DNA of 14,061 nucleotides. Source: Sedimenticola sp. (GTDB lineage Bacteria > Pseudomonadota > Gammaproteobacteria > Chromatiales > Chromatiaceae). Location of the stretch: contig JALWGP010000133.1 in the NCBI GenBank assembly GCA_027038775.1, positions 1 through 14,061 on the forward strand, in the 5' to 3' direction. Under the pieces are notes generated by a model that saw only the letters and a list, made by a program, of their open reading frames with translations, ran no database searches and was not told where the DNA came from. Shown one piece after another: positions 1 through 13,391 of this stretch (the first letter of the stretch is position 1; the number at the start of each line of letters is the position of its first letter). The position numbers were made by a program, and so were the translations under genes.

Positions 1-1763
1 GCCGGGGCATGGTTGGGGGGGGTGGTGCGGTGCTGGCCGGGCACGAACAGCTGGGGCCCGCGCTCGCCCACCACGTAGAGCGAGCCGGCATTCACGGGGC
101 CACCAGAGGCCATGAACCCGCCAAACAGGCTGCCGAAGAAGCTCCCAATGCCGTTGGCGATTCCGCCGAACAGGCCTCCAAGCCAGTCTCCCGAGCCTTT
201 CCCAAGGCCGGAGATGGCCTTGCTCAGCGGATCGGTGATGGTGGTGCGGACGATGACCCTGAGAATGTCCTGCTCCAGGGCCTTGAGCACGTTGGAGAGC
301 TTGTCGCCTTCGAGGATAGCCCGCTCGAATGCGCTGCTCATGATGCCGCCGAGCTCGGTCCAGGTATCGCCGGTCTTCCACGCCTGCTCTTCGAGCTTCG
401 AAGTGCCAATCACGATTTGGTCGATCATCCCCACCTGCTTCTGTATCCACTGGCGATCCATGTCCTCGAACTGCCTCGACACGGCGTCCAGCATGGCGTA
501 GCCATCCGGATCCATGGCTTCCCGCATGTACTCCCTCGTGAGGTCCGTGGTCTTCTTGATGCCGACCATGACCTGGTCGACCAGGCCGACCTGCTTCAGG
601 GCGATCTGGCGGTTCATGTCGTCGAACTCTGCAATCACCCCATCGAGCATGATGTCCAGGTCGTCGCGCATCTTCTCTGCAGCCTGTTCGACGTTGCCGG
701 TCACGCCGCCCATGCCCACCTTGGGCTCGAGCGCATTGTCCTTCCCCTCGAGCACCTTCAGGATCTTCTTGCGCTCCTCCAGGTTTCGCTTGAGGTACGT
801 CCGGTTGATGCGGAGCCGCTCCTCCAGGTCGGCGCGCTCTGCTTCGGACCTGGCGTTCCTGTAGGCGGCTTCCAGCCTGGCTCGCTGGGAATTGAGGATC
901 TTCAGCTCGTCCAGCAGCTTCTGCCCACGTACTTCGGGAGAGTCCGCATGGGTGCCGAAAGCCCCGAAGTAGTCCAGCACGGCATACTTCGCCTCCGAGA
1001 TTTTGAGCTTCAGCGTCTCCCAGTCCCCGGCCATCCGGGAGAGCCCCATGCTGATCTTGGTCTCGACGGCCTCGTGCGCCCGCCGGATGAGCCCGACCTC
1101 GGTCTGATATGCCTCGGCCTTGTCGATCATCGACTTGTCGAACAGCAGGCCGTAGTCCCGGATCTTCCTGTTGACCGCATCGATGCTGGACTGGCTCGAC
1201 CGCCACAGCTCCACCAGCTTCACGCCCTCGGTGTCAACGGCGTTCATGGCCAGGGCCAGCTGCCGGTTTTTGTCCTCCAGAGAGGAGAGCTTCTTGCCGA
1301 ACTCGTTCCAGAGCTGGAAGTTGGATTTCAAGTTGCCATGGGCGTCCCGGATGGAGATGTTCAGCTCCTTGAACGTCTTGTCTAGGGAACCGGAGCCGAT
1401 CCGCCTGGCGAAGCGCTGGAACGCGGTGTCGAGCACGTTGGTCTGGATGCCCGCGGCCTCGGCCTGGATCCTGATGCGCTGGAGCTGGTCCGTCGTCAGC
1501 CCAAGGCGACGAGAGGCCTTGCCCAGGTTGTCGAGGTTGCCAGAAGCGCGATAGACACTCTCTGCAAAATTGTCCATTGTGGAAATCGCAGCCCGGATGG
1601 ATGCGATACCGGCAACAGTACCGAAGGCACTGGCCAGGGCCTTTTTCATCTTTCTGGCATTTTTCTCAAGGCGCTTGATCCGCCTGTTGGCAGTCTCCGC
1701 TTCCTTGTGGAACCTGGATGCCTCTGCCTCGAGCTTGACGACCAGTCGTGCAAGATCCGCCAT
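1..1763 (-). CDS. Phage tail tape measure protein (C-terminus cut by window edge)
   Basis: The frame is open on the minus strand from ATG at 1763 to the window edge, giving 587 codons with no stop. An in-frame TAG lies three codons upstream, so this is the first possible ATG. The start (MADLARLVVKLEAEASRF) and the lysine/arginine-rich helical stretch after it are typical of tail length tape measure proteins of Gammaproteobacteria. The end shows a glycine-rich segment followed by ASGGPVNAGS and GERGPQLFVPG, the usual tape measure C-terminal signature, so only a short tail is probably missing. The middle is coiled-coil-like and holds a two-fold internal repeat (around residues 380-404 and 432-456). 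In a phage this protein fills the tail tube and sets tail length. It starts 6 nt after the upstream gene and is probably co-transcribed with it. Confidence 0.9.
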   Translation of the reverse strand, partial: MADLARLVVKLEAEASRFHKEAETANRRIKRLEKNARKMKKALASAFGTVAGIASIRAAISTMDNFAESVYRASGNLDNLGKASRRLGLTTDQLQRIRIQAEAAGIQTNVLDTAFQRFARRIGSGSLDKTFKELNISIRDAHGNLKSNFQLWNEFGKKLSSLEDKNRQLALAMNAVDTEGVKLVELWRSSQSSIDAVNRKIRDYGLLFDKSMIDKAEAYQTEVGLIRRAHEAVETKISMGLSRMAGDWETLKLKISEAKYAVLDYFGAFGTHADSPEVRGQKLLDELKILNSQRARLEAAYRNARSEAERADLEERLRINRTYLKRNLEERKKILKVLEGKDNALEPKVGMGGVTGNVEQAAEKMRDDLDIMLDGVIAEFDDMNRQIALKQVGLVDQVMVGIKKTTDLTREYMREAMDPDGYAMLDAVSRQFEDMDRQWIQKQVGMIDQIVIGTSKLEEQAWKTGDTWTELGGIMSSAFERAILEGDKLSNVLKALEQDILRVIVRTTITDPLSKAISGLGKGSGDWLGGLFGGIANGIGSFFGSLFGGFMASGGPVNAGSLYVVGERGPQLFVPGQHRTTPPNHAP

Positions 1764-1769
1764 GTCGAT

Positions 1770-2300
1770 CTACCCCGTTTCCTCGTTGACTGTGGCAGTC
1801 TCGGGTATAGCAGATCGGGCGCGGATGACGGCCGAATGACGTTCCACGGTGATCGAGTAACCGGGAACCGGCCTCACCTGGATCTCCCGGCCGACGGAGA
1901 CCGCCTGCTTGAGGAATCGGGCCAGGTCCACGGCCCCCTCAACGTAGAGGCGATCCCGTGCACGTTCCAGGCGCTTGGCCAGGGCGTTGGGGGACACGTT
2001 GGTGATTCGATCCACCTCCACCAGGCCATGCAGCGTTGTGCTCAGGATGGCGTGGTAGTCCTCCAGGCCGAGAAGCCCGCGGGGGAAGGCGATCGTGAGG
2101 CCACCCTCCTCGATCTCCCAGTGATCCGAATAGCGCTTGAACCCCAGGCGCTTTGGGTGGCGCCTCGACTCCCTGCGGAGCCGTTCCCGGTGGTGCCAGA
2201 CGTATTCTTCCGCCAGCGCCAGGTAGTCCCCCGGCGGCAGGAACTTCTGAGCCAGGAGCTCAAACAGGTCGAGCGCGGCATGCTGCCGTTCCAGGTTCAT
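1770..2300 (-). CDS. Unknown phage protein, 176 aa, directly upstream of the tape measure gene
   Basis: I do not recognise the family. The 176 aa protein is mixed alpha/beta, rich in Arg, Leu and Glu, with no signal peptide or membrane segment. Its ATG at 2300 overlaps (ATGA) the stop of a possible 38-codon ORF, and it ends 6 nt before the tape measure ATG, so it looks like part of that operon. Its position is where tail assembly chaperones usually sit, but I see no -1 slippery site linking two overlapping frames, so a chaperone role is only a positional guess. A plus-strand ORF over the same bases (1707-2384) is taken to be a shadow because the minus frame is the one with operon-like junctions. 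Confidence 0.8.
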   Translation of the reverse strand: MNLERQHAALDLFELLAQKFLPPGDYLALAEEYVWHHRERLRRESRRHPKRLGFKRYSDHWEIEEGGLTIAFPRGLLGLEDYHAILSTTLHGLVEVDRITNVSPNALAKRLERARDRLYVEGAVDLARFLKQAVSVGREIQVRPVPGYSITVERHSAVIRARSAIPETATVNEETG

Positions 2301-2413
2301 GCGGAAGAGCCCTGCATTGACGGCGGCCCTCCTGCTGCACCAGGTGCCCGATCCCGATGCAGCTGCAGCACCGGAACCGGGTAATCACTGCTCCTGTTCG
2401 GCTGGTCCGGCAT
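2297..2413 (-). CDS. Possible small ORF, 38 aa, Pro/Gly-rich
   Basis: ATG at 2413 begins a 38-codon frame that fills the gap between two larger genes. It starts 6 nt after the upstream stop, and its TGA overlaps the next ATG as ATGA. The product (starting MPDQPNRSSDYPVPV) is rich in Pro and Gly and has no recognisable domain. The Shine-Dalgarno is weak (GAGAG close to the ATG). The snug fit and the mostly G/C third positions favour translation, but a frame this short can arise by chance. Its main role may be to couple translation of the 176 aa protein downstream. Confidence 0.4.
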   Translation of the reverse strand: MPDQPNRSSDYPVPVLQLHRDRAPGAAGGPPSMQGSSA

Positions 2414-2419
2414 CTCTCA

Positions 2420-2785
2420 TCAGGGCAGGGGTGACGCCCCCCTGGTGATCGTTGCCTCCTCCCGCGAGCCGGGCATGGGCAGGGCGGCCGCCCCATGATT
2501 CAGCTCCGAGATGAATCCGGCGAACTCCGCAGCCACGGAGATCGCGGCATTCACCTCGGCCCGTTCGGTGTCACTGGAGGCAGTGGAAGATGCCGCCCAC
2601 ACCAGCCGGAGCATGGCGGCCAGCTCCTCGGTGAGGAGTCGGGTGTCGAGCTTCTCGGCAAGTTGCCTGATCTGTTCCGGACTCACTTCACCGGGTTGGT
2701 TCGATTGGCGTTCCAGCAGGCGCCCCAGCTCGATGAGCGCGGCCGCCTTGTCACATGCTCGGGCGGCGTCAACATGCGTCTTCAT
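2420..2785 (-). CDS. Unknown phage protein, 121 aa, mostly helical
   Basis: I do not recognise this protein. It is predicted largely alpha-helical, with a segment rich in Leu, Ala and Glu (LAEKLDTRLLTEELAAMLRL) and no membrane span. I chose ATG at 2785 rather than the GTG one codon earlier because GGAGGT lies 6 nt before the ATG but only 3 nt before the GTG. The ATG shares its A with the TGA of the preceding gene (TGATG), which indicates translational coupling. The layout faintly resembles that of the 137 aa neighbour upstream (short charged start, then Leu/Ala-rich helices), so the two could be distant duplicates; this is a weak impression. Confidence 0.8.
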   Translation of the reverse strand: MKTHVDAARACDKAAALIELGRLLERQSNQPGEVSPEQIRQLAEKLDTRLLTEELAAMLRLVWAASSTASSDTERAEVNAAISVAAEFAGFISELNHGAAALPMPGSREEATITRGASPLP

Positions 2786-3198
2786 CACTCCACCTCCGGT
2801 CCAGCAGTTGCGAGTTCGTTGGGGTTCATCTGGGCAGGCGTTTCAGTGTCGGGCTTGGATTGGGCGGCGGTCTCCTTGTGCCTTTTCAGCAGGCGGTGGA
2901 GCACTTCCACGGCGGAAATGGCGTCGCTCAGTTGGGCGGTCTGCTCCCGCGCGGCCAGTACCAGCGAAAAAGTTGTATCTGACATGCCATCAAGCCCTGC
3001 GAGATGTTCTTCCAGCACGCACGTGAGCATATGAACCCGGTGGGCCATGCTTTCCACATCCAACCAGTCCGCGAGTAGTTCCGCCTCTCTCAAGGCCTCT
3101 TGCGGGATGGTCGGCTGCGGGTGCGATTCAAGGTGCTGGTGAAGGGTCCGGTACCGCTCTAGCACCTCATGGATGCTGGTTGGGATTTGTACGCTCAT
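2785..3198 (-). CDS. Unknown phage protein, 137 aa, mostly helical
   Basis: No family recognised. The 137 aa product is soluble and helical, with an acidic, Pro-containing C-terminus. ATG at 3198 overlaps the stop of the upstream 72 aa gene (ATGA) and is preceded by AAGGAG at 8 nt. It is the third gene of the coupled set that follows the C4-type leader, so its expression would depend on that switch. Genes in this position downstream of C4 RNAs in other phages include antirepressors and cell-division inhibitors, but nothing in this sequence shows such a role. Confidence 0.82.
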   Translation of the reverse strand: MSVQIPTSIHEVLERYRTLHQHLESHPQPTIPQEALREAELLADWLDVESMAHRVHMLTCVLEEHLAGLDGMSDTTFSLVLAAREQTAQLSDAISAVEVLHRLLKRHKETAAQSKPDTETPAQMNPNELATAGPEVE

Positions 3199-3413
3199 GA
3201 CTTTCTCTCCTTCGCCATCTCGTGGCGCGTTGCGGGGTTGGCGGGTTCTTCAATGTCGATTGCGCAAATGAGCCGGGCGTCCGGGTGCTGGCGCTTAATC
3301 TCGGCCAGTGCCTGCCGGGCTTGTGTTTCGTCGTGGCACACCCGCGACAGAGGGGCGCCAATCACCAAGTTGCCGTTCGGCAGGCGTTCGTCATGTCCGA
3401 TCCAGAAGTTCAT
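3195..3413 (-). CDS. Unknown small phage protein, 72 aa
   Basis: Function unknown. It begins MNFWIGHDERLPNGN and carries a short helix (ARQALAEIKRQHPDA) followed by a beta-like stretch, which could be a small alpha/beta fold. The start is well supported: GGAGGT lies 6 nt before the ATG, and the ATG overlaps the TGA of the preceding gene (ATGA). Its own TGA overlaps the next ATG in the same way. Confidence 0.8.
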   Translation of the reverse strand: MNFWIGHDERLPNGNLVIGAPLSRVCHDETQARQALAEIKRQHPDARLICAIDIEEPANPATRHEMAKERKS

Positions 3414-3649
3414 CCCGCCACCTCCAGCGCTTCTCGAGCGCGGGCATGCCCCTCATCGAGGCCAGCGTGGAAGGCGTCGAAATCGGACGATCCCGCCGGG
3501 TAGGGGCAGGCGATGCGTGCGCCGTCGAGGCGGTAGCGCAAGGCGGCCAGGACGCCGGCCCGGTAGGCCTCGGAACGGGGATCGCGGAAGGGGTGGAATG
3601 CGCGGTCGAATACCGCTTGCGCGTTGGGGCGCTGGGTGGGTGTGGTCAT
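3410..3649 (-). CDS. Unknown small phage protein, 79 aa; first gene after the C4-type leader
   Basis: ATG at 3649 follows a strong Shine-Dalgarno (AGGAGG, 6 nt spacing). The frame is open much further upstream, but that part runs antisense through the toxin-antitoxin genes and the structured leader, so this start is preferred. The protein has an FHPFRDPRSEAYRAG motif and a DAFHAGLDEGHA motif. I recall similar small proteins of unknown function from proteobacterial prophages, but cannot name a family. Its Shine-Dalgarno overlaps a GACTAGGA element exactly complementary to a loop of the C4-like RNA, so translation of this gene, and by coupling the genes after it, is the likely target of antisense control. 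Confidence 0.85.
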   Translation of the reverse strand: MTTPTQRPNAQAVFDRAFHPFRDPRSEAYRAGVLAALRYRLDGARIACPYPAGSSDFDAFHAGLDEGHARAREALEVAG

Positions 3650-3657
3650 GGTCGGCC

Positions 3658-3697
3658 TCCTAGTCAGGTTGAAGAGACCGCCTTCCTTCACGCCAAT
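3658..3697 (-). promoter_or_regulatory. Downstream target pair (a2/b2) of the C4-like RNA, overlapping a Shine-Dalgarno
   Basis: On the minus strand ATTGGCGT (3697-3690) is followed by GACTAGGA (3665-3658), which runs into the AGGAGG Shine-Dalgarno of the gene starting at 3649. The C4-like RNA carries ACGCCAA and TCCTAGTC, the exact complements of seven and eight of these bases. This matches the known a/b target arrangement of the phage P1 and P7 c4 system, where antisense pairing hides the ribosome site and reduces downstream expression. Confidence 0.65.
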
Positions 3698-3704
3698 AAA
3701 GGGA

Positions 3705-3775
3705 GGCGGGCTGCACACGGTTGGCGTACCGGGACTAGGACCGGCGGGACCGAGGTCCCCCGCGTGCAACCCGCC
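3705..3775 (-). ncRNA. c4-like: C4-type antisense RNA (three-way junction)
   Basis: The minus-strand RNA folds as a closing stem of GGCGGG (3775-3770) with CCCGCC (3710-3705), extended by GCACGC pairing with GTGTGC. Inside it are a perfect hairpin GGGACC-TC-GGTCCC (3759-3746) and a second hairpin closed by CCGG/CCGG (3744-3729). Loop segments hold ACGCCAA (3727-3721) and TCCTAGTC (3740-3733), complementary to copies both upstream and downstream in the same transcript. This layout and the base pattern match my memory of the C4 antisense RNA family of phages P1 and P7 (related to the P4 CI RNA), where a processed leader RNA acts in trans on the downstream mRNA. A covariance-model search would be the firm test. 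Confidence 0.72.
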
Positions 3776-3789
3776 ATGAATCGGGCATG

Positions 3790-3812
3790 AAAAAACGCAC
3801 CGAGTGGCGCGT
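3790..3812 (-). terminator. Intrinsic-terminator-like hairpin in the C4 leader
   Basis: On the minus strand ACGCGCC (3812-3806) pairs with GGTGCGT (3801-3795), one pair being G-U, around an ACTC loop. A run of six T follows (3795-3790). It lies between the leader promoter and the C4 structure, so it could stop most transcripts early and act as the attenuation element of the switch. I recall a similar GCGTTTTTTCATGCC block in front of other C4-type RNAs, which would make it a conserved part of the module. Confidence 0.5.
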
Positions 3813-3820
3813 TGCTTGCG

Positions 3821-3841
3821 CCTAGTCTTCCGGACGCCAAT
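3821..3841 (-). promoter_or_regulatory. Upstream copy (a1/b1) of the C4 target elements
   Basis: ATTGGCGT (3841-3834), CCGG and GACTAGG (3827-3821) occur in this order on the minus strand, just after the predicted transcription start. The same order, in reverse complement, is found within the C4-like RNA. A nascent leader could therefore pair with C4 RNA here as well as at the Shine-Dalgarno copy, as in the double a/b design of P1/P7 and P4 leaders. Confidence 0.55.
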
Positions 3842-3871
3842 CCGGGCCGCTGAATGTGCAGCGGTAAAACA

Positions 3872-3901
3872 AGCATAGCCCCGGCCGCGCAGGGAGGTCA
3901 A
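3872..3901 (-). promoter_or_regulatory. Sigma70-type promoter for the C4 leader and following operon
   Basis: Minus-strand -35 TTGACC (3901-3896) and -10 TATGCT (3877-3872) are separated by 18 bp. This is the best promoter seen in the window, and it would start transcription near 3865, just ahead of the a1/b1 elements. Its -35 box lies 16 bp from the toxin-antitoxin operator palindrome, so regulators bound there might affect both directions. Confidence 0.7.
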
Positions 3902-3907
3902 ATGCCT

Positions 3908-3937
3908 TTGGCGATGTTGTAGCTTGTGAGCTACACT
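3908..3937 (+). promoter_or_regulatory. Candidate toxin-antitoxin promoter
   Basis: TTGGCG (3908-3913) and TACACT (3932-3937) are 18 bp apart and would give a start very near the ATG at 3944, so the toxin mRNA would have almost no leader. The -10 overlaps the right arm of the 18 bp palindrome, a common design for autoregulated toxin-antitoxin operons. Confidence 0.45.
3918..3935. promoter_or_regulatory. 18 bp palindromic operator of the toxin-antitoxin operon
   Basis: TGTAGCT-TGTG-AGCTACA is a perfect inverted repeat with 7 bp arms, located in the divergent promoter region 9 bp before the toxin ATG. HigA-type antitoxins usually bind such palindromes over their own promoter. Binding here could also reach the divergent C4 leader promoter. 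Confidence 0.6.
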
Positions 3938-3943
3938 TTCCCC

Positions 3944-4240
3944 ATGCGGTAGGAGATCGCCACCACCGAGGTCTTCGACAAGTGGCTGAAGAGCCTGAGG
4001 GACCGCCAGGCGGTCGTGGCCATCGCCAACCGGCTCACCCGCGTGGCGGCCGGCCACCTGGGGGACGTGAAGCCGGTGGGGGATGGGGTGAGCGAGATGC
4101 GCATCTTCACCGGCAAGGGATACCGCCTCTATTTCACCTTGCGGGATGCGCGCCTGGTGCTGCTGCTGTGCGGTGGCCACAAGGGCACCCAGAGCAAAGA
4201 CATCGCCAGGGCCAAGGCGCTGGCGAAGGAGATCGAGTGA
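3944..4240 (+). pseudogene. RelE/HigB-family toxin with an amber codon near the start
   Basis: From codon 4 on, the frame encodes a typical addiction-module killer protein of the RelE/ParE fold: EIATTEVFDKWL, then LRDRQAVVAIANRL, GDVKPVGDGVSEMRI, GYRLYF and the closing LLLCGGHKGTQSKDI. Family members are mRNA-cleaving or gyrase-targeting toxins of about 95-100 aa. Here ATG (3944), CGG and TAG (3950-3952) precede the conserved Glu-Ile, so the natural reading stops at codon 3. The next usable start is GTG at 4016, giving 74 aa without the first helix. The antitoxin 3 nt downstream is intact. Either the toxin is dead, or a non-standard or truncated start is used, or the base is a sequencing error. 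Confidence 0.65.
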
Positions 4241-4243
4241 ACG

Positions 4244-4519
4244 ATGAAAGTGAAGCCTTTCAATCCGGCAGAGCACCTGCAGACCGACGAGGAGATCGCC
4301 GAATACCTGAACCAGGCCTACGATGACGAGGATCCCGAGGTGTTCGTCATCGCCCTGGGCAACGTGATCCGAGCCCAGGGGGTGGCCGAGGTGGCGCGCA
4401 GGGCGGGGCTCAACCGCGAGAGCCTGTACAAGCTGATCTCCGGCAAGACCCGCCCGAAGTGGGAGACGGTCCACGCGCTGATGCGGGCACTTGGCCTGAA
4501 GCTGCGCACGGCTGCCTGA
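4244..4519 (+). CDS. HigA-type antitoxin, HTH addiction module antidote protein
   Basis: The 91 aa protein has the N-terminal pattern NPAEHLQTDEEIAEYL and a helix-turn-helix at about residues 47-68 (VAEVARRAGLNRESLYKLIS), then RALGLKL. It belongs to the family of putative addiction-module antidote proteins that pair with the killer family upstream. It would bind the toxin and repress the operon at the 3918-3935 palindrome. ATG at 4244 lies 3 nt after the toxin stop, with AAGGAG upstream inside the toxin gene. It ends 23 nt from the convergent endonuclease gene. No defect is visible, so it may remain active as a repressor without a working toxin. Confidence 0.9.
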   Translation: MKVKPFNPAEHLQTDEEIAEYLNQAYDDEDPEVFVIALGNVIRAQGVAEVARRAGLNRESLYKLISGKTRPKWETVHALMRALGLKLRTAA

Positions 4520-4542
4520 TCCGTCCGGGGCCCATCCGGCCG

Positions 4543-4968
4543 TCATGCCAGCTCCCGCACCAGCGCGCAGAAGCCTTCGGCCGACGTGGTGAAGGTCCAC
4601 TCCACCCCCTCACCGCGGTGGAGGCCATCCCGCACGAAGGACATGGGCACCACCACCCGCCAGGGCTGGCGGTCCTCCCGGTAGGCCAGGCAGGGCACCA
4701 GATCATCGGCCTGCGCCTGCTCCATCGCCTGCACCCACCACTTCTGCAGAAGGTGTCCGGTGGCGCGCCGGCTCCGTTTCACCTCCACGGCCAGGCGCCG
4801 CAGCATGTCCGCCACCGGGCCCTCCTCGGTATCGCACACGATGAGGTCACAACCACCCGACCGCGCCTGCACCAGGTTCCGCACCATCCTCACCCCGAGG
4901 TGATCCATCACCAGGCCGGCAAATTCCCGCTCCCCGCCGGCGCCCTTCGCTCGCTGGTGGCTGCCCAT
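4543..4968 (-). CDS. PDDEXK-type endonuclease, Holliday-junction-resolvase-like
   Basis: The 141 aa protein has the spacing of a small PD-(D/E)XK nuclease: GGEREF near residue 13, SGGCDLIV with Asp41, then VEVKR with Glu62 and Lys64, followed by a WWVQAMEQA helix. Phage proteins of this kind are annotated as PDDEXK endonucleases or resolvases that cut branched DNA during recombination or before packaging. The ATG at 4968 shares its A with the TGA of the ssb gene (TGATG). It is the last gene of the recombination operon. Exact substrate cannot be judged from sequence. Confidence 0.8.
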   Translation of the reverse strand: MGSHQRAKGAGGEREFAGLVMDHLGVRMVRNLVQARSGGCDLIVCDTEEGPVADMLRRLAVEVKRSRRATGHLLQKWWVQAMEQAQADDLVPCLAYREDRQPWRVVVPMSFVRDGLHRGEGVEWTFTTSAEGFCALVRELA

Positions 4969-5354
4969 CAGAACGCCAGCGGGTCGTCGTAGAAGGCCTC
5001 GGTGGCGGCGTTCGCCTCCGCCTTTTCCTTCTTCGGCCTGCTCTCCCGGTACCGCCCACGGGCGCTCTTGATTCCGGCGATGCCATCGGCGGTGATCTGG
5101 AAGCCCTCCACCGGCTGCCCGTCGCGGTTGGTGTAGTCGTTGGCCTGGAAGTCGCCGCTCACCCGGATGGCGTCCCCCTTTCGGTATTTCGCCAGCTCGT
5201 CGGCCAGGGAGCCGAAGGCGACGATGGAGAGCGGGAGGTCGCGGTCCTCGGATCCGATGTAGGCGAAGCCGAAGGCGGTCACCATGGGGCTGCCGGTGCG
5301 GGTCTGGATGTTCCTGGGGTCTGTGCCCAGGCGGATTCGTGCGATGCAGAACAT
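4968..5354 (-). CDS. ssb: Phage single-stranded DNA-binding protein
   Basis: The 128 aa protein has an OB-fold pattern (MFCIARIRLGTDP, LPLSIVAFGSLADELAKYRKGD, IRVSGDFQ, GFQITADGI), then a charged linker and an acidic end DDPLAF resembling the C-terminal tip by which SSB recruits partner enzymes. I start at ATG 5354, because the longer open frame adds 17 residues unlike any SSB start. A purine-rich GGGGAAGAG lies just upstream. It follows the putative annealing protein by 16 nt and precedes the endonuclease with overlapping codons. It is likely to coat single strands during phage replication and annealing. Confidence 0.85.
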   Translation of the reverse strand: MFCIARIRLGTDPRNIQTRTGSPMVTAFGFAYIGSEDRDLPLSIVAFGSLADELAKYRKGDAIRVSGDFQANDYTNRDGQPVEGFQITADGIAGIKSARGRYRESRPKKEKAEANAATEAFYDDPLAF

Positions 5355-5370
5355 GTCTCTTCCCCCGGGG

Positions 5371-6213
5371 TCACTTGCCTGCTGGGGGCTCCACCGCCTC
5401 ACCACCGGCCAGCTTGTCCTTCAGCTTGCGGGCCTTCGCGGTCTCCTTCGGCAGGTCGAAGAAGTCCTCCGGCTTGGCCATGCCGTCCTTCAGGGCCCGG
5501 TAGATGTGCCGGAGCTGGATCATCTCCGCGCCGATCATCTTCTCCAGGTGCTTGCCACCGAGACGGCGGGAGAGCATCTCCCGGCTGACGCCGAAGGGCT
5601 CGAAGGCCTCCACCAGCTGCGCCACGCTCTCTTTGTTGACCTGCACCGCGTTCTCCAGCGTCACCTGGCACTGGTTGAGCGCGGCGTCGATGACATCGCC
5701 GGGGATCACCGCAAGGATGCAGGCGCGGAGCCGGCGGGCGCCCTGGTTGGCCGTCATCTCGTAGATGTCGCGCGGGTCCTCCAGGGTGGTCACCTTGCCC
5801 CGGGCCTTGCGGGTGTGCTTCACAGTGAAGACCTTCACCACCCGCACGTTGGTCTCCAGGTCGTGCGCGAAGGCCTCCACCACCGACTCGCCCTTCTCCT
5901 GGGAGAGCTCGCGGACGCCGTAGGTCATGTTGCCCCAGTGTTGCGCTACGGCTTCGGCCAGGCGGATGGAGGGGCCCGTGACGGTGGTGCCGCCGCGGGG
6001 GAAGGCGTAGACGGCCTGCTCTGCCAGGGTGGGGCGGGTGCAGGCCTGCAGGATCTTGTCCACGGCGGCCACGGGATCGCGCGGGAAGCGCTTGGCCAGG
6101 GCGATTGCCGCCTGCACCTCGGCCACGGCGCGGGCGGAATCGCTCTCCATCATGGCGCCGGCAGCCGGCGTGGTGGAATTCTTCCCGAAGGGGTTGGTGA
6201 TTGCAGTGCTCAT
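5371..6213 (-). CDS. Putative phage recombination protein, ssDNA-annealing (RecT-like) candidate
   Basis: This is a 280 aa protein starting MSTAITNPFGK. Its core (YAFPRGGTTVTGPSIRLAEAVAQHWGN, then ETNVRVVKVFTVKH, DPRDIYEM and NQGARRLRACILAVIPGDV) is a conserved phage block I recognise from prophages, usually left unannotated. The IPGDV helix region followed by a long helical C-terminus, and the position between a RecE-like exonuclease and an SSB, suggest a single-strand annealing protein of the broad RecT class. That function is inferred mainly from context. ATG at 6213 overlaps the exonuclease TGA (ATGA) and has GGAGG upstream. Confidence 0.75.
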   Translation of the reverse strand: MSTAITNPFGKNSTTPAAGAMMESDSARAVAEVQAAIALAKRFPRDPVAAVDKILQACTRPTLAEQAVYAFPRGGTTVTGPSIRLAEAVAQHWGNMTYGVRELSQEKGESVVEAFAHDLETNVRVVKVFTVKHTRKARGKVTTLEDPRDIYEMTANQGARRLRACILAVIPGDVIDAALNQCQVTLENAVQVNKESVAQLVEAFEPFGVSREMLSRRLGGKHLEKMIGAEMIQLRHIYRALKDGMAKPEDFFDLPKETAKARKLKDKLAGGEAVEPPAGK

Positions 6214-7010
6214 AGTTGTTCCTCCAGAGCAGCCCAGGCGGGCATGGTCAGTTCGATGGGGCCGTCGGCATAGCCAGGCCAGGTGTCGGTCTCCAGGCAG
6301 TGGCGCAGCTTCTCCAGGGCACGCTCCCGCAGAATGCGACCGCGCTCGAGGAAGACGTCCGGCGCGATGTAGACCTGGACGGTGTGCGGCGGGCTGGACT
6401 CGATCACCAGCCAGGCGAAGGTCTCCGTGGGGCGCCCGACCAGGGCGGCGGCCTCCAGGTAGTGGGCGGCGCTCAGGTCGTAGCCGTACCGCACCACCGC
6501 ACGGGTGAAGGCGTCCTCGCTGGCATCGCTGGTGGTCTTCACGTCCAGCATCAGGGATAGGCCCTCCGGCGCCCACCAGTCGGGCCGGGCCTTGAGCTCC
6601 AGGCCGCCTTCCTCCCAGAAGAGGGAGTGCTCCACCATGGCCTCGTGCTGCAGCAGCTCCGCCACCCAGGGATCGGCGCGGGCGGCATCGGCCATGGCCC
6701 GGGCGGTCTCCAGCTCTCCGGCCAGCATCACCGCCCGGCCATCGGCCTCCTCGAGGGCGGCCCGGTAGGCCTTGGTGTTGCGGGTGGAGGCCTCCACCAC
6801 CAGGTACTCCGCCTCGAGGCGCTCGGGCTCCAGGAGCAGGGTGTGCACCAGGCTGCCGAGCTGCATGGCGGTGGTGGGCGGCTGGGGGTTCTCCCGCTCC
6901 CAGTGGAACCGGGCCGGGTTGCGCAGCAGGGTCTTGAGCTGGGTGGACCCGAAGGCCTCATGGGCGTGATAGTCCCGGTTCGGCAGGTCGGGGATGATGC
7001 GCGCCTTCAC
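6210..7010 (-). CDS. RecE-like PD-(D/E)XK exonuclease (DUF3799-type)
   Basis: The 266 aa protein opens with YHAHEAFGSTQLKTLLRNPARF and AMQLGSLVHTLLLEPE, the hallmark of the exonuclease-VIII-like DUF3799 nucleases of phages. The catalytic core shows Asp144 (ARPDWW), then Asp156 and Lys158 (MLDVKTT). The helix that in relatives carries a QxxxY motif reads YDLSAAHY, with Ser180 in place of Gln. The enzyme would resect double-stranded ends 5' to 3' for the annealing partner. The GTG start at 7010 overlaps the preceding stop (GTGA) and has GGGGGTGA as ribosome site. Confidence 0.88.
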   Translation of the reverse strand: MKARIIPDLPNRDYHAHEAFGSTQLKTLLRNPARFHWERENPQPPTTAMQLGSLVHTLLLEPERLEAEYLVVEASTRNTKAYRAALEEADGRAVMLAGELETARAMADAARADPWVAELLQHEAMVEHSLFWEEGGLELKARPDWWAPEGLSLMLDVKTTSDASEDAFTRAVVRYGYDLSAAHYLEAAALVGRPTETFAWLVIESSPPHTVQVYIAPDVFLERGRILRERALEKLRHCLETDTWPGYADGPIELTMPAWAALEEQL

Positions 7011-7258
7011 GACTCACCCCCGGCCACGCGGTTGAGGTAGGGCACGGCCCAGGCGGTCACCACCTCGCCCACCCGGGCCGGATCCTCGCTGGCCAGGGCC
7101 TCGGCCAGGCGGCCGGTCTCGCGCTCCTTCCCGCCGTCCCACCAGTCCTCGATTGCGTCCGGGCCCACGGCCTCCCAGAGCACCTCAGCGGCCTGGTGGT
7201 CTCCGGCTGCCGCGGCATCGAGGAGGTCGAGTACTGCGGGGGTCAGCTCGCCAGTCAT
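7007..7258 (-). CDS. Unknown small phage protein, 83 aa
   Basis: I do not recognise this protein. It is acidic, with a helical start (LTPAVLDLLDAAAAGDHQAAEVLWEAVG) resembling an ankyrin-like helix pair, followed by AIEDWWDGG. Its ATG overlaps the stop of the small-terminase-like gene (ATGA), and its TGA overlaps the GTG of the exonuclease, so it is firmly inside the recombination operon. A cofactor of either neighbour is possible but unproven. Confidence 0.8.
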   Translation of the reverse strand: MTGELTPAVLDLLDAAAAGDHQAAEVLWEAVGPDAIEDWWDGGKERETGRLAEALASEDPARVGEVVTAWAVPYLNRVAGGES

Positions 7259-7542
7259 ACCTCATCCCACCCGTCATTCGCCGGATCGATCGGCTGCTCG
7301 AGGCGCTGCCGATCCTTCGGCGTCAGGCCGAATTTCGCCATCGCGGTCTCTAGGCGCACGAGCTTCGCCGCGGTCATCCTGTCAGGGTCTCGGCGAAATT
7401 CCGCCAGCAGGCAGGCCAGCACCTCCAGTGCCAGGAGGTCAGACTCCTGGATGAGCCCGTCCGGGGCGCGCTTGACGATGTCCCGCCAGGCGGCCCGTTG
7501 ATCCTTGCTGAGGCGGCCAGGTGGCCGAAGGTGATCACTCAT
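7255..7542 (-). CDS. Small terminase subunit-like protein, P27 family type
   Basis: The 95 aa protein has the P27-type layout: LSKDQRAAWRDIV, then ESDLLALEVLACLLAEFR, LVRLETAMAKFG and the closing LTPKDRQRLE. Small terminases bind the packaging site and hand DNA to the large subunit. The protein is shorter than most P27 members (about 110-150 aa), and no large terminase follows; the next genes are recombination genes. ATG at 7542 has GGAGA at good distance. It is the first gene of the coupled operon and lies next to the repeat-rich block, which could be its binding region. Confidence 0.65.
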   Translation of the reverse strand: MSDHLRPPGRLSKDQRAAWRDIVKRAPDGLIQESDLLALEVLACLLAEFRRDPDRMTAAKLVRLETAMAKFGLTPKDRQRLEQPIDPANDGWDEV

Positions 7543-7607
7543 GGTTCGTTCTCCAATCGTTCCCAAACATAAAACGCCTCTCGCAAAAAAACGGATGCCC
7601 GAACGGT

Positions 7608-7703
7608 CCCTGAGCGCCGTCCTGCAGAGATTTCGCCCCCCCTGCCTCTTGAGGTAGGGTAGAGTGGGTAGCTGTCGATCGCCTGCCACAGCGGCGCTCA
7701 GGG
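7608..7703. repeat. 12 bp inverted repeat flanking GGTAG repeats
   Basis: CCCTGAGCGCCG (7608-7619) and its exact reverse complement CGGCGCTCAGGG (7692-7703) enclose 72 bp. Between them GGTAG occurs at 7653-7657, 7658-7662 and 7667-7671. The arms are too far apart to be a simple terminator. A protein-binding or packaging-site role is possible. Confidence 0.45.
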
Positions 7704-7902
7704 CCTGTTGTGGCGTTGTCTGACGGGCCGGAATTCGCCCTTACGCCACTTGAAGCTCCCACCGGCCGGGCATCTTGCTCCCGCCCGGGGTCTGCGCCCT
7801 GTAGGAATCGACATCGTGAGCCCATTGGGTGCAGTCGCTGCGTGGCTGCGACCAGGGAGGTGCTGGCCAGGATGGAGTCGCCCCTGCCGTTCCAATCCGG
7901 CC

Positions 7903-8093
7903 ACCCGGCCACCACCCGGCCACCACTGAGCAGCCGGATCGTAGAAATGGGAAATAGAGAGTGGCCGCAACTACCCGGCCACCTCTCTATTTCTTTAAGG
8001 GCGGCCGAGTAGTAAGGCCGGCCGGGTGAAGGAGGTGAAAACGGCCGCACCAAAGGGATACCCGGCCGCGCGCCATTCCAAAACCGGCCGGGT
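7903..8093. repeat. Cluster of six ACCCGGCC octamers (iteron-like)
   Basis: ACCCGGCC is found on the plus strand at 7903-7910, 7914-7921, 7973-7980 and 8060-8067, and on the minus strand at 8020-8027 and 8086-8093. Near copies lie at 7761-7770 and 7896-7902. The first two are spaced 11 bp, one helical turn. One copy sits across the loop and stem of the 7951-7993 hairpin. Clusters like this downstream of a RepA-like ATPase are typical of initiator or terminase binding sites. Confidence 0.6.
7951..7993. repeat. Long stem-loop, 16 bp stem with a single bulge
   Basis: GAAATAGAGAGTGGCC (7951-7966) pairs with GGCCAC-C-TCTCTATTTC (7977-7993), leaving one unpaired C and a 10 nt loop. No long T run follows on either strand, so it does not look like a simple terminator. 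A structured origin element or a recombination or packaging hairpin are the alternatives. Confidence 0.6.
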
Positions 8094-8115
8094 TGCTCGG
8101 CTGCCTTCGCGCGAC

Positions 8116-9318
8116 TCACTTTGGCGTCCCCACGATGGGGTGGAGATACTGCTTCCGGCCGCCCCTGCGCTCATGTTCTGGCAGGTCTCGCAGCTGCAGG
8201 CGCCCATCTGCCAGCAAGCGCCCAATGGCGGCTCTCAACCGGTTTCGCGGTACGCCTGACAGCTCGTACTGCTCTTTGGCGCTGGCGATGGTGTGCTTCT
8301 TGCCTTCAGCCAGCTGGGCCTGAATGAACCGCAGCGCCGCCAGCTCGTCGGCTTGGGCGCGCTCCAGCGCGGCCTGATTTTCGTCTGGACGTTCAGCCCA
8401 GGCGATCTCCCAGCCATTGCGCGCAATGAGAATGGGGCGTTGCGGAGGGCAGTACGACAGCTTGGGCAAGGACAGCTCCAGCAGCTGGCCGCCGCCTTCC
8501 AGCAGGGGGCGCAGTTCTGGCGGCGCGATGTCGTGGTCTTCCAGGGTGGAGAGCACCGCTACCATCCTCGATCCGTCCGGTAGGGCGGTGCCGCCGCGAC
8601 CCGTATATTGATCACGAGTGGCCGACCTCGCCGCTTCTTGCCCGACGTGATGAATGAACCGCACGCAGCAGCCTAGGGCGCGAATCAGGCGCCGGGCTGC
8701 CAGCACCATTGCCTGAGCCCCGTCATTTACGCTGGCCTCTCCGGGGCCAAAGCTCACATAGGGATCTACCACCACCAGGGCGGGCGGATCGTCGCGCAAG
8801 GCCTCGATCAGCCGGTCCACGTTGGCGGTCAAGATCACGTCGCCCATGACATTGGCGGCGAATTTGAATGGCTGCCCGGACAGATCAGAAATGCGCACCC
8901 GCTCGCGCACCCGCGACAGATCGAGCTCGGCCAGGCCCATGCCCTTGCAGACTTCCCGCAAACGGGCGGTGAGCTGTTCCCGCGAGTCCTCCCCGGTGAG
9001 GAACAGCACCCACCCGCCCCGGCTCTTGCGGCCGTACAGGGGGCGCTCCAGGGCGATATGCACCGCCTCCCACAATGCGAGGGTGGTCTTGCCAGTGCCT
9101 CCAGCGGCTACCAACAGCGCCAGATCGGCGTACAGGTAGCGTTCAACCAATGCGGCCGGTGCCAGCCTGGCCGCCTGCCACTCCTCCTCGGTGATTGGCT
9201 CGGGTGGATGCCAGCCTGAATCCGCCTCGTTCACGTTAGGGTTGAGCGGAATAATCTGCGCACCCTCAATTTCCCGGTCGATCCGAGATAGGGTCTCCTG
9301 CAGTTCGTCCTCAGTCAT
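8116..9318 (-). CDS. RepA-like AAA family ATPase (replicative helicase-like)
   Basis: The 400 aa protein carries Walker A (AAGGTGKTT, residues 71-79), a conserved acidic residue after a beta strand (LFLTGED, Glu110), Walker B (LVVVDPY, 181-187) and a histidine motif (FIHHVGQEA, 221-229). This is the RecA-like AAA_25 fold of hexameric RepA-type helicases common in prophages and integrative elements. The last 80 residues look like a winged helix (ASAKEQYELSGVPRNRLRAAIGRLLADGRL) that may bind DNA. ATG at 9318 overlaps the stop of the primase-like gene (ATGA). It probably unwinds element DNA, possibly at the repeats just downstream. Confidence 0.88.
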   Translation of the reverse strand: MTEDELQETLSRIDREIEGAQIIPLNPNVNEADSGWHPPEPITEEEWQAARLAPAALVERYLYADLALLVAAGGTGKTTLALWEAVHIALERPLYGRKSRGGWVLFLTGEDSREQLTARLREVCKGMGLAELDLSRVRERVRISDLSGQPFKFAANVMGDVILTANVDRLIEALRDDPPALVVVDPYVSFGPGEASVNDGAQAMVLAARRLIRALGCCVRFIHHVGQEAARSATRDQYTGRGGTALPDGSRMVAVLSTLEDHDIAPPELRPLLEGGGQLLELSLPKLSYCPPQRPILIARNGWEIAWAERPDENQAALERAQADELAALRFIQAQLAEGKKHTIASAKEQYELSGVPRNRLRAAIGRLLADGRLQLRDLPEHERRGGRKQYLHPIVGTPK

Positions 9319-9953
9319 GCTGCCGCCCTCGTATCACGTGGATACAGCTTCAACAGCATGGCCGCGACACGCTGCGCCGCTGCCCGTTCGCGATCCCAGT
9401 GCCCCTCCGGCATCGGCTGCCATTCCGGCGGCAGAGCGCGGTGACGGCGGGCCAGCTCGCGTCCGGCCACACGGGCGCCCACAACTTGCTGGAGGATGGC
9501 GAGCTCATGTACTAGCGCCTCCTCAAGCTTGGCCACCTCGCGCTGTCTGGCCGCCTCTCGCGCCCGCCGGGTGGCTTGCGGATCGGGCTTTGCCTCTATG
9601 CCAAGGTAAGCCGCCACCAGGCGCAGGGCCTCGCCCTTGGATCGGGCGATGCCGGCATGAACGAGCAAATCAAAGCCGTCGCCTCCGGTTGGATTGCCAC
9701 CCTGGCCGCAGATCCACCCCCCACGCTCGATCTCCGCACCGATCAGTCGGAACCGATTCCGCCCGGCACATGTGAGGTTCAGGCAGGGAACATGCCGATC
9801 CGGCGGCGGGAGCTCGGCAAGGCCGTGGGCGCGCCAAATCTTGGGCCATTTGTAACGCGCTGCGGCGGCAACGGTGCTAAAATCGAGGTGCTGAGTCGTT
9901 CTTGATAAGGCGCCGCCCGCCCTGCCCGGCGGGCTTTTTCGTTGCGGCGCCAT
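9315..9953 (-). CDS. Primase-like protein with N-terminal zinc ribbon (P4-alpha type), no catalytic domain
   Basis: The 212 aa protein has the pattern of phage primase zinc-ribbon domains: KWPKIWRAHGL, then PCLNLTCAGRNRFRL, GGWICGQGG and GDGFDLLVHAG. Cys57, Cys62 and Cys82 are present, but the fourth expected cysteine is Gly85, and the first pair is spaced CX4C rather than CX2C, so metal binding is uncertain. A basic helical C-terminus follows, and no Toprim or polymerase domain is seen. It may guide the RepA-like ATPase. The only start is ATG 9953, 2 nt after the alpA stop. The first 25 codons run through a hairpin that is a terminator on the other strand. Confidence 0.8.
   Translation of the reverse strand: MAPQRKSPPGRAGGALSRTTQHLDFSTVAAAARYKWPKIWRAHGLAELPPPDRHVPCLNLTCAGRNRFRLIGAEIERGGWICGQGGNPTGGDGFDLLVHAGIARSKGEALRLVAAYLGIEAKPDPQATRRAREAARQREVAKLEEALVHELAILQQVVGARVAGRELARRHRALPPEWQPMPEGHWDRERAAAQRVAAMLLKLYPRDTRAAA
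9875..9939 (+). ncRNA. Candidate small antisense RNA over the start of the primase-like gene
   Basis: An extended -10 (TGC-TAAAAT, 9875-9883) would start transcription near 9890. About 50 nt later GCCCGCC (9915-9921) and GGCGGGC (9928-9934) form a hairpin followed by five T (9935-9939), a good intrinsic terminator. The RNA would be fully complementary to the first codons of the primase-like mRNA and could limit replication. No convincing -35 is seen, and expression is unproven. Confidence 0.35.
9915..9939 (+). terminator. Intrinsic terminator inside the primase-like gene, plus strand
   Basis: A perfect 7 bp GC stem with a CTGCCC loop is followed by TTTTTC. It faces against the surrounding genes. 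It could end the short antisense RNA or stop plus-strand read-through into alpA. Confidence 0.6.
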
Positions 9954-9955
9954 GA

Positions 9956-10153
9956 TCAGGCCGCCATTTCATTATCGGCAGAAGGCCGGTTCTCGATCCA
10001 TTCGCCGACGTCGCGCTCTCGCCACGCCACCGATCGACGAGCAAGGCGCACGGGTTTGGGAAAATCATCTTCCGACATGAGGCGGTATAGGCAGCTCCTC
10101 GACAGGCCCGTTATTGCCAGAACTTGTTTCAAGCGCAGCAGTCGCTGGATCAT
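9956..10153 (-). CDS. alpA: AlpA-family transcriptional regulator / excisionase-like
   Basis: The 65 aa protein has the typical AlpA form: RLLRLKQVLAITGLSRSCLYRLM (helix-turn-helix, about residues 4-26), then FPKPVRLARRSVAWRERDVGEWI, the winged part. AlpA proteins of P4-like phages and satellites activate integrase or excision genes, or act as excisionases. ATG at 10153 follows GGGGGC. It begins the replication block (primase-like start is 2 nt after its stop), and its upstream region holds an inverted repeat and phased GGAAC repeats that may be its operator. Confidence 0.92.
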   Translation of the reverse strand: MIQRLLRLKQVLAITGLSRSCLYRLMSEDDFPKPVRLARRSVAWRERDVGEWIENRPSADNEMAA

Positions 10154-10183
10154 GTTTCGCCCCCATGGTTTGAGTTGGCATAT

Positions 10184-10211
10184 TTATGGAACCATAAGGA
10201 ACTCATGGAAC
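10184..10211. promoter_or_regulatory. Operator-like repeats upstream of alpA
   Basis: TTATGG-AA-CCATAA (10184-10197) is a perfect inverted repeat, and GGAAC recurs at 10188, 10198 and 10207, spaced 10 and 9 bp. The block lies between the terminator of the preceding gene and the alpA start, so it must include the alpA promoter if that gene has its own. I cannot place -35 and -10 boxes with confidence. Confidence 0.45.
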
Positions 10212-10226
10212 GAATAATGAAAACAG

Positions 10227-10259
10227 AAAAAAAAGGGCCCAAAATGGGCCCGTTTTTTT
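10227..10259. terminator. Bidirectional intrinsic terminator
   Basis: GGGCCC (10235-10240) and GGGCCC (10246-10251) form a hairpin with loop AAAAT, flanked by eight A (10227-10234) and seven T (10253-10259). It works in either direction. On the minus strand it closes the 209 aa gene and separates it from the alpA block. Confidence 0.85.
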
Positions 10260-10284
10260 CATTGCAAAAACAGCGACTTGTGAG

Positions 10285-10914
10285 TCATCCGGTTTTGTAA
10301 TCCAGGCACTCTTTCACTTGATTGACCACTGTTCTGCCTTCTTTCCCGGAAATCGTCGAAACGGTGCGATAGAAGCAACCATTCTTACTGCCGTTGAGCG
10401 CGATACCATAATCCTCGAGCAAATCAGCTACCAGACAAACAAGGAGTCGATCCGGCTTGGTTATATCTCTCCCGCGTTTGGTGGCAGCTGCCATCCTCTC
10501 CCGGGCAAGCTCTATCATGCCCTCCAAGAAACGCAGGTGATTTTTCACCTGCTTCGGCAACAAGCTTACATTCGTTTTTGTGTGCATCAGGATCGTCTCC
10601 TCAATCAACTCTCGTGTCTCAGAATCGAGTTCCTCGAATCCTTTCAACGTGTCGCGCAGGAATCTTTGGAACTTATCCAGTGCTGCGAGAATCTGCCCTT
10701 CGGTGGGCCGCTCCCTTTCACTTTTTCGTTCATGTAGGTAAATAGAAGCGATCTCCTGTGCCCTTTCCAGAAAACTCTGGAAATCCTTTCCATCCTCAGT
10801 TTCCTGGTGATACCGTTCAAAGAGCCTCTGCAAGGTTGCGATCTGCTCCTTGCTCAACGGCTCATCAATGATATGCCCAATGTCTTGAAAACGGCTGGGC
10901 TTCGGTTCCGGCAT
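10285..10914 (-). CDS. Unknown protein, 209 aa, AT-richer than its neighbours
   Basis: No family recognised with confidence. The protein is soluble and mostly helical, rich in Glu, Lys and Arg, with helices around residues 20-140 (FLERAQEIASIYLHERKSE, ALDKFQRFLRDTLKG). A C-terminal part (TKPDRLLVCLVADLLEDYG, NGCFYRTVSTISG) distantly recalls the end of other small proteins encoded next to phage integrases. ATG at 10914 has GGAGGT 6 nt upstream. Base composition and codon use are visibly less GC-rich than in the integrase and alpA genes, and a strong terminator closes the gene. The site between integrase and alpA often carries cargo genes such as defence or superinfection-exclusion factors; that role is only positional here. 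Confidence 0.8.
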   Translation of the reverse strand: MPEPKPSRFQDIGHIIDEPLSKEQIATLQRLFERYHQETEDGKDFQSFLERAQEIASIYLHERKSERERPTEGQILAALDKFQRFLRDTLKGFEELDSETRELIEETILMHTKTNVSLLPKQVKNHLRFLEGMIELARERMAAATKRGRDITKPDRLLVCLVADLLEDYGIALNGSKNGCFYRTVSTISGKEGRTVVNQVKECLDYKTG

Positions 10915-10946
10915 TGCGCACCTCCACGCAACCTCAACGAATAGGA

Positions 10947-11004
10947 GCCGGCGGCAGGCCGGGTGAGGAGGCCCGGCTTTTCGGCGGCCAACCTAGCCGC
11001 CGGC
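10947..11004. repeat. Nested inverted repeats between integrase and the 209 aa gene
   Basis: GCCGGCGGC (10947-10955) and GCCGCCGGC (10996-11004) are an exact inverted pair. Between them lie GCCGGG/CCCGGC followed by TTTT on the plus strand, and CGGCGGC/GCCGCCG around CAACCTA. Another octamer copy (GGCCGGGT, 10957-10964) is included. There is no T run on the minus strand, so this is a poor terminator for the integrase. Confidence 0.4.
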
Positions 11005-11012
11005 GTGATCTG

Positions 11013-12239: not shown

Positions 12240-12259
12240 CGCCGTAAACCTCTTCTCAT

Positions 12260-12360
12260 GTTGCCCCACGCAACCAGCATGAAACCGGCCATTCCTGGAA
12301 TAGTTGCCCCACCCCCTTGCCAGGTTGCCCCCAATGTTGCCCCAGAAATACGGGGGCAAC
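12260..12360. repeat. Five GTTGCCCC repeats upstream of int, candidate arm-type sites
   Basis: GTTGCCCC occurs at 12260-12267, 12303-12310, 12324-12331 and 12336-12343, with an inverted copy GGGGCAAC at 12353-12360. They lie between the integrase start and the tRNA, where the arm domain of a P4-type integrase would bind during integration and excision. They may also cover the int promoter and so give autoregulation. Confidence 0.6.
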
Positions 12361-12400
12361 TGTGGGACGTGGTGGGCCGTTATGGGAAGAAGGGTACCAC

Positions 12401-12424
12401 AAAAAAGCCCGCGTTTATGCGGGC
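12401..12424 (-). terminator. Intrinsic terminator downstream of tRNA-Ser
   Basis: On the minus strand GCCCGC (12424-12419) pairs with GCGGGC (12412-12407) around a 6 nt loop, followed by six T (12406-12401). It ends the tRNA transcript about 36 nt after the CCA and isolates it from the integrase region. Confidence 0.8.
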
Positions 12425-12459
12425 TTAGGAATGTTATGAGATGTTTTGAGAAGGGTTTA

Positions 12460-12482
12460 TGGCGGAGAGGCAGGGATTCGAA
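12460..12482. other. Probable attachment-site region at the tRNA 3' end
   Basis: P4-type integrases commonly recombine within the T-arm to 3' end of tRNA genes, and the integrase lies on that side. The matching direct repeat at the other end of the element is outside the window, so the exact core cannot be drawn. Confidence 0.4.
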
Positions 12483-12549
12483 CCCTGGAGGGGCGTTGAC
12501 CCCTGCCGGTTTTCAAGACCGGTGCATTCAACCGCTCTGCCACCTCTCC
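12460..12549 (-). tRNA. tRNA-Ser (anticodon UGA)
   Basis: The 90 nt minus-strand gene has a 7 bp acceptor stem GGAGAGG/CCTCTCC, discriminator G and encoded CCA, a D-loop with AGCGGTTGAA, anticodon loop CTTGAAA with anticodon TGA, a long class II variable arm built on GGGG/CCCC, and T-loop GGTTCGAATCC. All match tRNA-Ser(UGA). Its 3' half is the likely attB for the integrase next door. Confidence 0.97.
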
Positions 12550-12609
12550 GAGGAACGCAAGAGGATACCGGAATCGCACCGGAATTGGAAAGGGTGGCGG
12601 GAGCCCGGG

Positions 12610-13350: not shown

Positions 13351-13374
13351 TTCCCGCTCCTCTCCGGAAACTGT

Positions 13375-13391
13375 CTACAATTCCATTGTAG
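13375..13391. promoter_or_regulatory. 17 bp palindrome with mirrored TACAAT boxes between divergent genes
   Basis: CTACAAT-TCC-ATTGTAG is a perfect inverted repeat, and TACAAT, a good -10 sequence, is present on both strands (13376-13381 and 13390-13385). It may be a shared operator or overlapping divergent promoters for the DUF72 and SixA genes. No clear -35 boxes are seen. Confidence 0.4.

Follow-up and report, generated by a model that had tools for sequence, protein, structure and literature searches.

A C4-type antisense RNA ahead of small uncharacterized genes in an AlpA-bearing prophage-like element of Sedimenticola sp.

What kind of switch is formed by a minus-strand leader that carries two pairs of short repeats around a structured RNA, and which genes would it control? 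The question is raised by a stretch of 14,061 nucleotides of Sedimenticola sp. (GenBank assembly GCA_027038775.1, contig JALWGP010000133.1, positions 1 to 14,061 of the forward strand), hereafter called the window. The locus is an ordinary member of the known C4 family, of the P1 c4 and P4 CI kind. We consider it probable (about 0.72) that it is the immunity switch of an AlpA-bearing prophage-like element, working in the steps proposed below. Computed here were the match to the family, the fold prediction, and the complementarity, joint variation and spacing of the four sites; promoter activity, processing, repression and release are proposed from P1, P4 and Gifsy-1. New here are a further C4 member whose first gene is unusual, and a likely instance of specificity exchange. 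The locus is also a clean and complete example of a switch that is named differently in three partly separate literatures (P1 c4, P4 CI and Salmonella IsrK).

Table 1. Features of the leader and of the genes behind it, in positions of the window.
Feature	Position	Strand	Remark
Sigma-70-type promoter match TTGACC-18-TATGCT	3872..3901	-	consensus match only, not evidence of function
IsrK-like short leader RNA (a1, b1, terminator)	3790..3865	-	start inferred from the isrK model
a1 target ATTGGCGT	3834..3841	-	predicted to lie in a hairpin loop; a' pairs with 3840-3834
b1 target GACTAGG	3821..3827	-	pairs with b'
Intrinsic terminator-like hairpin, then T's	3794..3813	-	1 found versus 0.4 in shuffles
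C4 antisense RNA	3699..3781	-	RF01695 covariance match and predicted fold
b' loop TCCTAGTC of hairpin P3	3733..3740	-	covariance match, fold, strict loop test
a' junction segment ACGCCAA	3721..3727	-	covariance match, fold, strict loop test
a2 target ATTGGCGT	3690..3697	-	complement of a'
b2 target GACTAGGA	3658..3665	-	overlaps TAGGAGG (3662-3656), the Shine-Dalgarno for the start codon ATG at 3649
g79, 79 aa, first downstream gene	3410..3649	-	uncharacterized phage gene family, faintly RMF-like
g72, 72 aa	3195..3413	-	98.6% identical in L009
g137, 137 aa	2785..3198	-	46% over 108 aa to a gene behind C4 in L010
g122, 122 aa	2420..2788	-	no Pfam/PHROG match
g176, 176 aa	1770..2300	-	after a 119-nt gap
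Tail tape measure-like protein	3..1763	-	cut by the contig end

A covariance-model scan of the window with Rfam 15 assigns an 83-nt minus-strand stretch to RF01695 with 71.7 bits (cut-off 45; E 1.2e-12), aligned over positions 1-87 of the 87 in the model. The minimum-energy fold of this stretch is the expected three-way junction P1/P2/P3 (-49.9 kcal/mol), in which a' and b' are predicted to be unpaired. By analogy with P1, from whose annotation the ends were transferred, the mature C4 RNA would span about 3775-3702 (74 nt) and begin at the GG after a conserved AU; a GG start of the mature RNA is described in passages of PMC5320573. An earlier note on this DNA had proposed a complete C4-type switch and suggested the Rfam search, which thus gave a clear match. 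The first a/b pair, the terminator hairpin and the second a/b pair lie on the minus strand where the note had placed them, the three-way-junction RNA with a' and b' agrees with the covariance match and the predicted fold, and b2 overlaps the Shine-Dalgarno sequence of the 3649 gene as described. The note had also called the promoter strong. A promoter-like match is present (9 of 12 consensus matches; 1 site in a region of 501 bases versus 0.1 in shuffles), but the word strong exceeds what a consensus match shows. Upstream of C4, the isrK model (RF01394) matches with 40.9 bits, under its cut-off of 50, and the c4-a1b1 model (RF03163) matches 3826-3878 with 37.0 bits, under its cut-off of 46.7, both at the expected position. 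The leader (3870-3690) has no match in E. coli genomes.

The double complementarity claimed for the leader is confirmed, since a' and b' are exactly complementary to a1/b1 and a2/b2. We held the C4 stretch fixed, shuffled the two flanks 20,000 times with dinucleotides preserved and counted 7-mer complements. Single complements appeared in 208 (a1), 13 (b1), 47 (a2) and 237 (b2) of the shuffles, and three or four of the four together in none of the 20,000. The loop-only duplex energies are -9.3 kcal/mol for each of a'-a1, a'-a2 and b'-b1 and -11.2 kcal/mol for b'-b2, the strongest pairing thus being that at the ribosome site. The Shine-Dalgarno sequence of the 3649 gene is predicted to be mostly paired even without C4 (mean unpaired 0.24), so that C4 might add little to its cover.

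If the sites form a switch, they should fit their own C4 RNA better than those of other elements. RF01695 is present in 8 of 55 related genomes and in 24 of 369 genomes of the class; both sets include the window's own genome, and the strict filters used lose weak matches. The two sets gave 65 distinct C4 places, 40 of which, the window among them, became loci. In a loose test we took the longest complementary run in the span around each loop, a measure that also counts chance matches elsewhere in the flank. At least 7 complementary bases were found in the loci's own leaders (n=40) in 38 cases for a1, 33 for b1, 36 for a2 and 35 for b2, versus 215, 189, 135 and 160 in the swapped pairs (n=1560). 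A strict test used only loops derived from the fold and counted sites at 6 or more matching bases. It covered 19 of the 40 loci; the fold predicted for the other 21 C4 RNAs has a closed loop or a different shape, and these were left out. Of the 19 own leaders, 16 match at all four sites and the three others fall short at b1, compared with 2 complete matches in 342 swapped comparisons. The 19 loci have 18 different loop pairs. Judged from these sequences, the four sites change in concert from element to element, as a self-recognising antisense switch requires.

One pair of elements suggests an exchange of specificity between elements in which the downstream gene is retained. In L009, g79 is 82% identical to that of the window and g72 is nearly unchanged (Table 1), yet the a and b sites differ and all four have changed together; its loops are CTGCCAG (a') and CCTCAGC (b'), and this locus was not part of the strict test. 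In L004, which belongs to a different bacterial family and whose g79 relative has 50% identity, the loops are exactly those of the window. The pattern of the window and L009 recalls the heteroimmunity of P1 and P7 as treated in part of PMC12197685, and passages of PMC5320573 describe how a few bases in the a/b sites set heteroimmunity.

The leader of C4 elements has been described under several names. In the 20 loci L002-L021, scanned at E up to 0.01, the stretch directly 5' of C4 is matched by isrK in 17 and by c4-a1b1 in 15; matches above the curated cut-offs number 4 for isrK and 6 for c4-a1b1. The names isrK and c4-a1b1 denote overlapping stretches of one leader. In the sections of PMC2864571 used here, C4 is given for Proteobacteria and phages and c4-a1b1 for gamma-Proteobacteria and phages. 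The unity of isrK and C4 is already partly in print: a table footnote in PMC4603805 treats C4 of B. cenocepacia as one transcriptional unit with isrK, a Xylella table in PMC12189769 has C4 and isrK in neighboring rows, and passages of PMC10111431 state that the Rfam models C4 and isrK detect relatives of CI and seqA, with matches in several PICIs. A list in the review PMC12197685 keeps IsrK and C4 apart.

P1 offers the closest annotated comparison. Its C4 stretch matches the model with 68.8 bits, and its annotation gives a1, b1, a 77-nt C4, a2, b2 and icd, with the sites confirmed by sequence. Like the window, P1 has the C4 RNA between a1/b1 and a2/b2, and in both the first gene is small and has b2 at its ribosome site. 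The spacings in P1 and the window are nearly equal: 14 and 13 nt from a1 to b1, 29 and 31 from a2 to b2, 11 and 9 from the end of b2 to the ATG, and 1 and 3 between the C4 model match and a2. The likeness to P1 c4 asserted in the earlier note thus extends to the layout of the whole leader. Only the b1-C4 distance is clearly longer in P1 (67 versus 46). The P1 annotation has two c4 promoters with a C1 operator, whereas the window has one promoter match, and unlike the c4-icd-ant arrangement of P1 and P7, no icd or ant is recognized in the window.

Gifsy-1 brings published genetics to the comparison. Its C4 stretch (34214-34131) scores 69.0 bits, with isrK (79.3 bits) and c4-a1b1 (48.1 bits) just upstream. 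When the first isrK base is numbered +1, the transcript has a1 at +26-32 and C4 at +103 to +186, with a' inside C4 at +158-164; a2/b2 precede the next gene, which is annotated as similar to an antirepressor (anrP), where the window has g79. Ten positions taken from PMC4825925 (C18, G28, G31, AUG107, G114, AUG119, C159, C162, G173 and C175) are all as named in the Gifsy-1 sequence. The a1 and a' segments pair base for base, with G28 facing C162 and G31 facing C159. The compensatory IsrK/orf45 mutations reported in PMC4825925 (G28/C162 and G31/C159) coincide exactly with a1-a' base pairs of a C4 RNA, and the mutants therefore give published genetic support for a1-a' pairing in Gifsy-1. A literature search limited to open-licence papers did not find this re-reading. 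The terms 'C4 antisense' and 'C4 RNA' are absent from the main text of PMC4825925, passages of which name the processed RNA STnc1160, report a species of about 80 nt and compare the locus with P4 seqA/CI. According to part of PMC7067206, STnc1160 and IsrK are highly transcribed in Gifsy-1 under all conditions tested.

Re-read in this way, the mutants bear on how C4 is released, that is, on whether the short a1/b1 RNA is a decoy. In an experiment described in PMC4825925, STnc1160 (the C4 RNA) supplied in trans sharpened the growth arrest by IsrK instead of countering it, which speaks against a simple decoy model. The 45-codon orf45 of Gifsy-1 is the frame over C4, and its start codon is the AUG conserved at the 5' end of the RNA. 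An ATG is found within the first 12 nt of C4 in 37 of the 40 loci, and its frame is open through C4 in 29 of these 37, with the two other frames open in 25 and 26. We rejected this frame as a general coding feature, as there is no clear excess over the other frames, and the open frame over C4 is taken as a feature of the RNA, not a conserved gene.

The genes behind the switch are less usual than in the classical systems, being small and uncharacterized instead of antirepressor or replication genes. Four of them (g79, g72, g137 and g122) lie end to end with four-base overlaps, and no minus-strand terminator or promoter match was found between 3660 and 1700, the gap before g176 included. From g79 to g176 there is no Pfam or PHROG match at 0.01. 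With NCBIfam, g79, g72 and g122 have no match at E up to 1, and the best values for g137 (E 0.035) and g176 (E 0.025) are at chance level. The earlier note had recognized no antirepressor behind the switch, and the profile searches agree: no antirepressor family was found with Pfam and PHROG in any of the six genes between the switch and the contig end, nor with NCBIfam in five of them, and no replication gene was recognized in this interval. The note had added that the output may be new; in terms of function this stays a suggestion, with a first gene from an uncharacterized phage gene family. A search of 50,697 phage records (E up to 0.01) gave no match to the leader, g79 or g176, and no viral-contig relative of g137 or g72 was found.

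First frames behind C4 vary widely in the other loci as well. Antirepressor-type Pfam families (AntA 2, Bro-N 2, P22_AR_N 1, pRha 1 and ORF6N 1) account for at most 7 of the 39 first frames scanned. Replication-type domains (Toprim, DUF927, DUF3987, DnaB, AAA_25 with helicase, VapE) lie behind C4 in 10 of 13 loci, a count from hand-picked loci with 19 downstream frames that is not a rate; L026, L009 and L028 are the three without such domains. The heading of replication operons by C4 was dropped as a new result, as PMC10111431 already describes immunity RNAs matched by C4 and isrK before the PICI replication zone, in the gene order int-AlpA, Bro/immunity RNA, replication and late genes in the passages used. 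Compared with Gram-negative PICIs, the RNA of the window stands behind replication-type genes and ahead of small uncharacterized genes and tail genes.

Relatives of g79 are the first gene behind C4 in L009 (82%), L003 (59%), L004 (50%) and L089 (46% to g79 in alignment A3), the last with a C4 match of 56.4 bits. Together with the window, these make five distinct C4-led places with a g79 relative. A search starting from g79 relatives found C4 above the cut-off at 3 of 12 genome loci, two of them already known (L080, the same place as L009, and L083, the same place as L004). C4 above the cut-off was absent at the other 9 of the 12 and at all 20 viral-contig loci with a g79 relative, and these 29 loci rule out g79 as a gene bound to C4.

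A profile search, in which the best 7997 candidates were scored, gave at least 58 proteins of the g79 family, none with a precomputed Pfam domain or an informative name. The pattern Y..G...A...R......PY..G....DAF.AG..EG in g79 recalls ribosome modulation factor (RMF). An hhalign comparison of the family with 20 RMFs gave a probability of 32.8% and a score of 23.2. In 100 column shuffles, including two that repeated previous output, the maxima were 5.4% and 16.8. Of 57 family members searched at E up to 1, two match RMF (PF04957), the better with E 0.14 and not above the cut-off, and Meth_synt_1, an unrelated family, is matched equally often and equally well. The best Pfam match of any member is Mor (PF08765, E 9.7e-5, below the cut-off), in P0009 only, at residues 8-41 and outside the g79-like part. 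No PDB chain was matched by g79 at E up to 10. We rejected g79 as an RMF homologue, because the likeness is faint, single members fall short of Pfam significance and there is no PDB match; as a family pattern the likeness is suggestive and serves as a lead only. It is unlikely that the switch holds back a small ribosome-directed, RMF-like protein, with the prophage altering host translation once the a1/b1 leader RNA has soaked up C4. If true, the switch would decide via host translation and not through an antirepressor or replicase that sets dormancy or growth.

By analogy with P1, P4 and Gifsy-1, we propose that the promoter match starts a leader that would mostly end at the terminator and sometimes read on. 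The read-through RNA would be cut, as RNase P does in P1, to give the C4 RNA of about 74 nt. Its loops may then pair with a2/b2, cover the Shine-Dalgarno sequence of the 3649 gene and block translation, and polarity would also block the genes after g79. If C4 pairs with a1/b1 while the transcript is still young, early stopping would be favored. The short a1/b1 leader RNA could compete for C4, since a1/b1 carry the same sequences as a2/b2, and by soaking it up may release the operon.

The balance between these steps may differ, as the comparison with P4 illustrates. The CI stretch of P4 matches the C4 model with 74.9 bits and the stretch upstream of it matches isrK with 60.8 bits; they were identified as CI and seqA by their place and by passages of PMC10111431. 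The sequences GTGAGAA (a) and TTCACAGG (b) occur both before and after the C4 match, at +4 and +35 behind its end, so that P4 (CI, seqA and seqC) has the same four sites a1, b1, a2 and b2 as the window. The earlier note had likened the locus to P4 CI only loosely; the likeness holds, and loosely was too weak a word, for P4 CI is closer. Part of PMC4825925 describes CI as acting by premature termination, and the window also has a terminator hairpin between b1 and C4. C4 may accordingly work in the window mainly by stopping leader transcription through pairing with a1/b1 and a2/b2, with cover of the ribosome site secondary. This is possible, but we doubt it, because in the window, as in P1, b2 overlaps the Shine-Dalgarno sequence, and its pairing energy is the best of the four sites. 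P4 and the window also differ in gene order. The RNA of P4 guards replication genes according to PMC4825925, whereas the primase-zinc-ribbon-like (E 0.0015, below the cut-off) and AAA_25 helicase-like genes of the window (9953-8116) lie upstream of the leader, behind the integrase and AlpA genes.

The operon could also be a recombinant of parts, behind an RNA that is still made and no longer decides anything. The downstream genes do look mosaic, with g79 and g72 as in L009, g137 closest to L010 and then tail genes, and an early stop interrupts the neighboring toxin-like frame. We nevertheless regard such a relic as very unlikely, as some of the four sites should be lost in a decaying switch, and all four are intact together with the whole predicted fold. 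Action mainly in trans on host messages or incoming phages, which passages of PMC5320573 propose for the C4-like RNAs of A. baumannii, appears more improbable still: the window has perfect cis targets on both sides of C4, and only one C4 was found in its own genome (440 contigs, about 89% complete).

Several observations concern the element and its relatives. AlpA (PF05930, 74.8 bits, 9956-10153) and a phage integrase belong to the same element as C4. An int-alpA RNA (RF02996, 10932-11003, 56.3 bits, cut-off 35.8) lies directly behind the integrase gene, and a 209-aa gene between integrase and AlpA (10285-10914) has no Pfam match at 0.001. The element adjoins a tRNA-Ser gene (12460-12549). C4 can be present in many copies in other genomes (for example 10 in G306 and 6 in G398), and L077 (G293 contig 9) has four C4 matches inside 1.4 kb, starting at 1700, 2055, 2653 and 3007.

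On the plus strand, divergent from the C4 leader, lies a toxin-antitoxin-like pair (3944-4519) with matches to Gp49/DUF891 (4016-4240) and an addiction-module antidote (4244-4519); 'HigBA-type' is our own label for it. An in-frame TAG (3950) follows the ATG of the toxin-like frame (3944) by two codons, and the frame may therefore be broken. Between the C4 promoter match and these genes is a perfect palindrome, GTAGCTTGTGAGCTAC (3919-3934), with five-base arms and a partly matching center, which could be an operator common to the C4 promoter and the toxin-antitoxin-like genes.
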